From an uncultured Verrucomicrobia subdivision 3 bacterium (GTDB lineage Bacteria > Verrucomicrobiota > Verrucomicrobiia > Limisphaerales > UBA11358): DNA of 58,066 nt. The DNA is taken from NCBI GenBank assembly GCA_903875465.1, contig CAIQWB010000001.1, forward strand, positions 1 to 58,066, given 5' to 3'. The notes below the pieces were generated by a model. That model was given only the letters and a program-made list of their open reading frames with translations, was not told the DNA's origin and did not search any database. The position numbers and the translations under genes are program-made. Shown here in pieces: positions 22,599 through 26,199 of the stretch (within the stretch, counting starts at the first letter, position 1; each line of letters opens with the position of its first letter).

Positions 22599-22672
22599 TG
22601 CCCGATGGTGTAACGGTAGCACAGCAGACTCTGAATCTGCTTGTCATGGTTCAAATCCATGTCGGGCAGCCA
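22599..22672 (+). tRNA. tRNA-Gln, anticodon CTG
   Basis: Complete cloverleaf on the plus strand: acceptor TGCCCGA/TCGGGCA (including the weak U1-A72 pair typical of bacterial tRNA-Gln), D-arm GTG..CAC with a TAACGGTAG loop, anticodon stem GCAGA/TCTGC with loop CTCTGAA (anticodon CTG), T-arm CATGG/CCATG with TTCAAAT loop, discriminator G and an encoded CCA (22670-22672). It decodes CAG. It lies between nuoE and nuoF, opposite to the operon's direction, so the nuo messenger carries its complement. Confidence 0.96.
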
Positions 22673-25036: not shown

Positions 25037-25570
25037 TTAGGATTTTGCCGAACCAGTCAGCTGATTGACGATGTTCATCTTCGAAATAACCGGCTGCTTG
25101 CTGATCTTATTTTGAATTTTAATCAACGCATCCAGCACGGCTTCCGGCCGGGGCGGACAACCCGAAATGTAAATATCGACGGGGACGATGTTATCGACGC
25201 CTTGCAACACCGCGTAACTGCGGTACATCCCACCGGTCGAGGCGCAAGCACCCATCGCAATCACCCACTTGGGCTCGGGCATCTGATCATAGACGCGCTT
25301 GAGCACCGGGGCCATTTTGTAAGTGACCGTGCCCGCCACGATCATGCAATCCGCCTGGCGGGGCGAAAAACGCATCACTTCCGAGCCAAAGCGGGAAATA
25401 TCGAAACGGCTGGCCCCCACGGCCATTAATTCGATGGCGCAACAAGCCAGACCCATGGGCATGGGCCAGACAGAGTTCGCACGAAACCAGCTCAGAGCAG
25501 CGTCCACCGTGGTAATCACCACGTCGCCCTCGATCTTGGAATCATAGCCAAATTCGCTTTTGGTTTGCAT
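25037..25570 (-). CDS. nuoB: NADH-quinone oxidoreductase subunit B
   Basis: 177 residues. Holds cluster N2, the last electron donor to quinone. Seen: [12 protein letters not shown] with the tandem cysteines (about 40-41), [10 protein letters not shown], and [19 protein letters not shown]. The open frame reaches 25636, but ATG 25570 ([12 protein letters not shown]) gives the normal N-terminus; the extra 22 codons coincide with the predicted promoter. First gene of the operon: no nuoA upstream or elsewhere in the window. Confidence 0.96.
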
Positions 25571-25637: not shown

Positions 25638-25655
25638 TTGTGATTTTTTTCACAA
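25638..25655. promoter_or_regulatory. Perfect CRP/FNR-family-type palindrome upstream of nuoB
   Basis: TTGTGA-TTTTTT-TCACAA is an 18-bp palindrome that matches the CRP consensus TGTGA-N6-TCACA at every fixed position. It abuts the predicted -35 box of the nuo promoter, centred about 47 bp upstream of the estimated start site, close to a class II activator position. The regulator is unknown; no CRP-family gene is in the window. Confidence 0.5.
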
Positions 25656-26010
25656 GCTCCGGTTTTATGGGGAATTTCGCATTAAAATGGACTTTTCCGA
25701 TTCTCGCCATTCTCTGTGGGGTTTTGTTGGTTTTTAGACCCGATTTTTAGCCATCCTGTTAAAAAAACAACAGCCAAAAGCCCGCAACTGCACTTATCGT
25801 CGGTTGGATTTTATAAGTTTACTGGCAATTTCATTAATTTCCCCACCAAACCCAGGCTGGCATGGCGTTTGCTTTATTAGACTTGCTGGGAGGATTTCGG
25901 TGGGGTTTGGATGGGTGGGGTGGTCCGGTCGGTTGTCAACAGTAATCGTGGGGATTACTCTAGCAATTGGTCGGTGGTGTTGCTGAACAAGCAAGTGTTC
26001 AAGGCAGGTT
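25656..26010. other. Intergenic region upstream of the nuo operon
   Basis: No convincing gene. A 75-codon minus-strand frame (26021-25794) lacks any protein-like character. Notable only is a G-rich stretch 25902-25923 (runs GGGG, GG, GGG, GGGG, GG) that could form a two-tier G-quadruplex. It partly complements CCCACCAAACCC at about 25840-25852. Confidence 0.4.
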
Positions 26011-26120
26011 TTACGACGCACGCGTCAAATTAGTTTGTCCGCAAGTCAACCGTGTTATGAAGCGACGAAGGAGGTCGACGGTGACTGCGGTTGGATTTAA
26101 ATTTTGACGCGTGCGTGTAA
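26011..26120. repeat. 110-nt palindromic element (MITE-like or structured RNA)
   Basis: The ends are perfectly complementary: ACGCACGCGTCAAA (26016-26029) and TTTGACGCGTGCGT (26103-26116). The flanking TTAC/GTAA pairs extend the stem across a single bulged G. Inner segments also pair imperfectly (GCAAGTCAACCGT, 26041-26053, against ACGGTGACTGC, 26078-26088). The whole element can therefore fold into one long hairpin with a roughly 24-nt loop containing GAAGGAGG. It carries no ORF and sits between the RluA-family gene and the nuo promoter. Confidence 0.7.
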
Positions 26121-26199
26121 TTCTTAGCGATAAAAACCACTCCTAAGTCTAATCACCTCACGTTATTTGCAAAATAGTTTAGCTTGTGATTCGCAGTTT

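Follow-up and report, generated by a model that had tools for sequence, protein, structure and literature searches.

A palindrome upstream of nuoB in a verrucomicrobial genome as the 3' hairpin of a predicted structured RNA with a sigma54-type promoter

Comparative data indicate that the 110-nt palindrome at positions 26011 to 26120 of the window (the entire stretch of 58,066 nucleotides analyzed here) is the 3' hairpin of a predicted, previously unlisted structured RNA of ~239 nt, encoded on the forward strand from approximately 25884 to 26122. Our favored reading, which we consider quite probable, is that this locus encodes a trans-acting small RNA (sRNA) with purine-rich motifs that would be induced by nitrogen limitation under the joint control of sigma54 and an NtrC-type activator. 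Comparison across genomes supports a predicted RNA-level structure, its strand, a promoter, an enhancer, and the occurrence of that enhancer at nitrogen genes of sister species.

The perfect 14-bp ends described in the original prediction are borne out, as the arms at 26016 to 26029 and 26103 to 26116 are complementary at 14 of 14 positions and constitute the only pair of inverted repeats found between 25700 and 26500. Both the TTAC/GTAA extensions and the imperfectly paired inner arms of that description are present. Folding of the whole segment into a hairpin was claimed as well, and the minimum free energy of 25990 to 26140 as RNA is −56.9 kcal/mol, compared with −39.4 ± 3.7 kcal/mol for dinucleotide shuffles (n = 200); this corresponds to a z-score of −4.68, and none of the 200 shuffles was as good. 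The element was said to lack an open reading frame (ORF), and indeed no ORF of at least 60 amino acids spans it, a 75-amino-acid ORF on the reverse strand overlapping its first 11 bases. We refer to the palindrome as hairpin B (26011 to 26120, forward strand), a feature defined by its arms, the shuffle test, a consensus fold, and covariation. The 110-nt extent originally assigned describes a real palindrome but only the 3' half of the predicted gene, the enhancer, promoter, and 5' domain of which lie at 25756 to 26010.

The original prediction named blastn against this genome and its relatives as a check. That search returned a single match in the genome of the window (G000) and, among the 58 other genomes of a first sample, one relative, the Verrucomicrobia subdivision 3 bacterium B4-5_bin-581 MAG (G012), at 81% identity. 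The two loci are orthologous, each lying ~450 bases before nuoB, and an island at ~25911 to 26121, delimited by eye on the alignment, is more alike between them than is the spacer toward nuoB. The gene on the side away from nuoB differs between the two genomes, and the element is kept. A blastn search of the 49 genomes of the genus with positions 25900 to 26130 (E ≤ 1) matched 38 genomes, but, the RNA loci of G000 and G012 aside, no hit was longer than 35 bases.

Covariance models revealed a far larger family. The first model, built from 2 sequences, recovered the RNA in 17 further genomes among the 49 searched (E values of 2.6e-7 to 0.064), at full length in all 17 and once per genome. The second, built from 18 sequences, detected it in 36 of the 49 genomes at E ≤ 1 and in 35 once G032 was dropped (E of 0.40 with this model; 21.4 bits later); 17 of those 35 genomes lay outside its training set and matched at E values of 2.3e-14 to 5.2e-4. 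The third, built from 37 copies, was run over 320 genomes of the order, recovered exactly those 35 genomes at E ≤ 0.01, and found no copy in the 271 genomes of other genera, under stricter filters that may overlook weak relatives. Before counting, we removed antisense hits of loci already represented and a weak match in G067:C65 (E of 0.57). The family thus comprises 37 copies; of the 49 genomes of the genus, 35 carry it and 14 have no detectable copy. It is present as a single copy in 33 of the 35. The two exceptions are G000, with a second copy at C139:122184-122296, and G012, with a second copy on C115.

This distribution bears directly on one half of the original alternative, a MITE- or REP-like mobile element. 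The palindromic shape and the size of the element would suit such an origin, as would the fact that it has moved and is present twice in this lineage. A genome that yields one match by blastn and two by covariance model, however, does not resemble the host of a mobile repeat, nor does a family that is single-copy in 33 of 35 genomes and that in 32 of them sits just before the same neighbor, a menaquinone-biosynthesis gene. The exact-arm pattern is absent from viral contigs and was found among GTDB contigs only in that of G012, the window's own records possibly having been left out of that collection. Compensatory changes, a conserved promoter outside the palindrome, and the orthology of the loci speak against mobility as well, and we consider this explanation exceedingly improbable. 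The other half of the alternative, a structured RNA gene, gains from covariation, from G-U pairs that favor one strand, from the conserved promoter, and from orthology.

Covariation among copies, also proposed at the outset as a check, is extensive. Across the 37 copies, 91.9% of 1,204 alignment cells are paired and 25 of 34 pairs carry changes on both sides, counts that are inflated by the fitting of the alignment to a model of the same structure; none of 500 shuffles reached any of five measures, and pairing falls to 25 to 49% when the partner is slid by 1 to 3 columns. The promoter described below lies outside the covariance model and supports membership in the family independently. Hairpin B has a lower stem, CGCACGCGCC/GGCGCGTGCG, that hardly varies and middle and upper stems that covary. 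Its apical region retains GGAGG in 32 of 37 copies and AAGGAGG in 26 of 37, the latter at 26068 to 26074 on the forward strand of the window. We counted 185 G-U cells versus 40 A-C cells, and the forward strand folds better than the reverse in 36 of 37 copies; this excess and these folds indicate that the RNA runs rightwards. The consensus fold of G000 and G012 alone reaches −60.5 kcal/mol on the forward strand and −33.8 kcal/mol on the reverse. Structure is what the copies conserve: judged by eye, the alignment contains no common reading frame, and a small ORF after AAGGAGG has no conserved start codon.

Both ends of the RNA are predicted. We set the start 12 bases downstream of the GC in the −12 promoter element and the 3' end at the base of the long hairpin; the latter is uncertain, as only 5 of 37 copies have a run of four T residues in the next 15 nt. 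Near the 5' end, at 25913 to 25920 on the forward strand, lies the G-rich motif GGGTGGGG, which takes the form GGRTGGGG in 29 of 36 5' domains; at least two GGGG runs occur in 34 of the 36. A predicted hairpin A (25925 to 25974, forward strand) presents a GTGGGG apical loop. It is drawn from the two-sequence consensus fold, from single-sequence folds, and from the recurrence of the loop motif in alignments, as the consensus fold over 36 sequences failed to yield a structure (−3.4 kcal/mol). The thirty-seventh copy, that of G026 (L065:1501-1609), was omitted from these counts: it has no 5' domain, and its promoter motif lies ~37 bases before the hairpin arm. This natural deletion should be useful for telling which part of the RNA matters.

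Hairpin B might instead be a terminator or a boundary structure between neighboring genes. A gene for an RluA-type pseudouridine synthase (PF00849; 26200 to 26958, reverse strand) is convergent with the RNA, and the hairpin follows its stop codon by 80 bases. The original prediction had this gene starting on the far side, which is wrong, as the stop codon (26200) faces the element. A terminator role was also said to be excluded by the placement of the genes; gene position does not exclude it, and it is unlikely on other grounds. No terminator-like site occurs at the hairpin on either strand, T runs after it are few across the family, and G012 keeps the element despite having a different gene beyond it. 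We assign this explanation next to no probability.

Upstream of the RNA, at 25858 to 25873 on the forward strand, is the predicted promoter TGGCATGGCGTTTGCT. The shared bases GGCA...TGCT were first noticed in 19 copies, and the pattern YGGCAY-N6-TGCT then held in all 37, 18 of which were new. We take this pattern to be the −24/−12 signature of sigma54 promoters. It occurs twice in the 58-kb window when both strands are searched; the second occurrence (13180, reverse strand) falls within a gene that by eye resembles nuoN and was set aside. A gene with a sigma54 DNA-binding domain is present in 47 of the 49 genomes of the genus, this genome among them.

Farther upstream, at 25756 to 25773 on the forward strand, lies the enhancer-like palindrome CTGTTAAAAAAACAACAG, a predicted binding site for an NtrC-type activator, 102 bases before the promoter motif from start to start. 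It is supported by its spacing over the 37 copies, by a combined promoter and enhancer pattern, and by a weight matrix. By a loose rule, which by itself would often match by chance, a CTG-N12-CAG-like palindrome with an A-rich center is found upstream of 36 of 37 copies; the spacing and the strict search described next weigh more. The distance from enhancer to promoter is 69 bases in 1 copy, 79 to 82 in 22, 91 to 92 in 6, 101 to 103 in 6, and 117 in 1 that is probably misassigned; these counts come from related copies and are not independent. Steps of roughly one helical turn are as expected from an activator required to face the polymerase. One of the two copies in G012 has a variant enhancer site.

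To what genes does this regulatory code otherwise belong? We ran a strict pattern, consisting of the promoter, an interval of 55 to 85 bases, and CTG-N12-CAG, over the 49 genomes and obtained 22 matches in 19 genomes, compared with 7 for a reversed control pattern in the same genomes. By position, 12 of the 22 are RNA promoters; 25 of the 37 RNA copies fail the pattern. In this genome the strict pattern has exactly two matches, which are the two RNA copies, and none at the genome's own nitrogen genes. Among the 10 matches elsewhere, 3 (L117, L125, and L130) precede a P-II gene and then an ammonium transporter gene (glnK-amtB). Pfam identified P-II in all three and the transporter in L117; in L125 and L130 the transporter was recognized by eye. 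Two more (L132 and L137) precede a glutamine synthetase gene, recognized by a Pfam match over its cutoff, with NCBIfam GlnII below its own. Another (L120) lies before a regulator and an amino-acid permease, and the remaining 4 (L118, L123, L124, and L136) look like chance matches. With 7 control matches and 4 of 10 that resemble chance, any single strict match means little.

A weight matrix provides a finer ranking. We built it on 35 of the 37 RNA enhancer sites (none was found for L074, and L058 is probably misassigned), scored the 12 inner bases only, and compared the scores with a background of 110 CTG-N12-CAG sites that are unrelated. All 110 rank below the sites of L117, L125 (identical to that of L130), and L137, and 109 rank below that of L132. 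Background sites rank above L120 in 3 cases, L124 in 8, L136 in 10, L118 in 14, and L123 in 62. At the L132 glutamine synthetase locus, in G014, a further enhancer-like site, CTGGTTAAATCCAAACAG, ranks at the top of the 110-site background. Genes for P-II, the ammonium transporter, and glutamine synthetase are classic targets of Ntr, a system treated in two earlier papers (PMC9170634 and PMC6606865). From an enhancer common to the RNA and these sister-species genes, we infer an NtrC-type activator and induction on nitrogen limitation; the predicted link to nitrogen is one drawn from sister species rather than from this genome's own genes.

The position of the RNA beside nuoB is atypical of the family. 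Here nuoB (25037 to 25570, reverse strand) is divergent from the RNA. Elsewhere, 32 of 35 RNA-bearing genomes have the RNA on the same strand as a menaquinone-biosynthesis gene, presumably mqnD (of the mqnA/mqnD type), ~70 to 190 bases before that gene, or ~270 bases in G010. These positions were compared by hand, with PF02621 tested on one genome and the gene match in G010 being partial. In G000 and G012 neither copy precedes this gene, one being beside nuoB and the other after a cytochrome b-type gene, and in G031 the RNA and the gene are on different contigs. When we examined the best 30 nuoB neighborhoods (45 of 49 genomes match, and several of the loci are truncated at contig boundaries), the RNA was found only in those of G000 and G012, and the nuo neighborhood is therefore taken as derived. 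The best reading of these data is that the RNA is usually encoded before the menaquinone gene and was relocated and duplicated in this lineage.

Such a consistent neighbor raises the question of whether the RNA is a structured 5' leader of the menaquinone gene, with a single sigma54 promoter serving both, hairpins that control read-through or translation, and a relic at the present locus. Its same-strand position just before that gene accords with this explanation, as do the lack of an intrinsic terminator at the hairpin in the window and the scarcity of T runs soon after it in other copies. However, both copies in G000 and both in G012 retain the structure, the promoter, and the enhancer although no menaquinone gene lies downstream of them, and the RNA is not always upstream of the PF02621 gene (G000, G012, and, on separate contigs, G031). 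Searching the regions upstream of the menaquinone gene with filters off yielded no score above 14.4 bits, whether in G000, G012, and G031 or in the RNA-less genomes, 12 of 14 of which were covered; G024 and G065 fell outside this search (no such gene was found in G065), and the L100 region spans only 239 bases. A GTGACA block, at its fullest CTTCTCGTCGTGACAG...TTTAAT, precedes the gene in 10 of the 12 RNA-less genomes inspected for it, as well as in RNA-bearing ones. The menaquinone gene thus seems to own a promoter, which favors an autonomous RNA over a leader. We judge the leader unlikely, yet the least unlikely of the rival explanations. A conserved block, CTTCTCGTCGTGACAGC...TGGTTTAATTT, that lies before the gene with or without the RNA (for example, at L074, L101 to L103, and L112) is probably the gene's own promoter.

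An autonomous, nitrogen-responsive sRNA suggests the following scheme. Under nitrogen scarcity, an NtrC-type enhancer-binding protein at 25756 to 25773 would switch the RNA on by rightward transcription from the sigma54 promoter at 25858 to 25873, in concert with glnK-amtB and glutamine synthetase. The RNA of ~240 nt would then act in trans, post-transcriptionally, by offering its purine-rich motifs (GGGUGGGG, the GUGGGG loop, and the AAGGAGG loop) to partner RNAs or to an RNA-binding protein, and its loops may pair with C-rich partners. Transcription itself, the identity of the activator as NtrC, action in trans, and action through the motifs are the conjectural elements of this scheme.

The conserved motifs are similar to the GGA-containing loops of CsrA sponges as well as to a Shine-Dalgarno sequence, and purine-rich, Shine-Dalgarno-like loops would be odd as a seed for mRNA pairing. 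A sponge comparable to CsrB or RsmY, the loop GGA motifs of which titrate CsrA, is one way to account for the GGA and GGAGG sequences in the loops. Within the genus, 15 of the 49 genomes have a CsrA gene and 14 of these 15 are RNA-bearing, a co-occurrence slightly above expectation; 14 of 35 RNA-bearing genomes thus have one, versus 1 of 14 RNA-less genomes (Fisher P = 0.038, uncorrected for kinship). CsrA (PF02599) was not found, however, in this genome, which is 96% complete, in G012, or in a total of 21 of the 35 RNA-bearing genomes, so titration of CsrA is not the general function, and we rate it as highly unlikely; for this genome it is contradicted unless the cell has a divergent CsrA. 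Somewhat less improbable, though still unlikely, is a Shine-Dalgarno mimic under nitrogen starvation, in which base pairing of the AAGGAGG and G-rich loops to the 16S rRNA 3' end, or alternatively to C-rich initiation regions, would dampen translation initiation on a global scale. If true, this would represent a new, CsrA-free coupling of protein synthesis to nitrogen supply in bacteria.

Regulatory RNAs with comparable control are known from other bacteria. In Pseudomonas stutzeri, NfiS is a nitrogen-controlled sRNA with a sigma54 site that is lost in an rpoN mutant and NfiR is one with an NtrC site, and NrsZ of P. aeruginosa is named among nitrogen-controlled small RNAs, according to PMC6606865. 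The verrucomicrobial RNA is likened to these by its predicted nitrogen control; it belongs to another phylum, has two long hairpins with G-rich loops and a CTG-N12-CAG enhancer, and matched no Rfam family. Qrr and CrcZ/CrcY are sRNAs transcribed from sigma54 promoters with enhancer-binding proteins, Qrr responding to quorum and CrcZ/CrcY to carbon quality, and here too the likeness is one of regulation alone. CsrB, RsmY, and RsmZ carry several GGA motifs in loops, as the verrucomicrobial RNA does, but their promoters are of a class different from its sigma54 type, and the CsrA protein is not found in this genome. 6S RNA (RF00013), likewise hairpin-like and matched once in each of two genomes searched, was rejected as an identity: this genome has its own 6S RNA at C33:45834-46013 (72.4 bits), and the region gave no 6S match at E ≤ 10.

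At gathering thresholds, Rfam 15 reports only a tRNA at 22599 in the window; at E ≤ 10 the region and its G012 counterpart gave seven matches, all below the gathering score and none over hairpin B. Among the top-ranked papers listed by full-text searches of the open-licence literature, judged by title and the beginning of the abstract, none describes a sigma54- or nitrogen-controlled sRNA in Verrucomicrobia. The RNA family appears to be new, and sigma54- or nitrogen-controlled sRNAs as a kind are already known. It adds to Verrucomicrobia an RNA family supported by covariation and equipped with a predicted promoter, and its predicted enhancer code for nitrogen control makes a regulon readable from the genomes of these mostly uncultured bacteria. 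A direct test is also within reach, in the form of an ammonium shift, one transcript, and one promoter.

Several further features of the surrounding sequence deserve mention. The tRNA gene (22599 to 22669, forward strand) is situated between nuoF-like and nuoE-like genes (named by eye) on the reverse strand. At 25638 to 25655, ~70 bases before nuoB, the perfect palindrome TTGTGATTTTTTTCACAA is identical in G012; we take it to be CRP-like and thus a candidate site for a CRP/FNR-family regulator of the nuo operon. An imperfect palindrome, GCCTCTGTATTTGC ... GCAAATACAAGGC (L086:1656-1766, forward strand; L087:1806-1695, reverse strand), which is possibly a second structured element, lies downstream of the second RNA copy in both G000 and G012.
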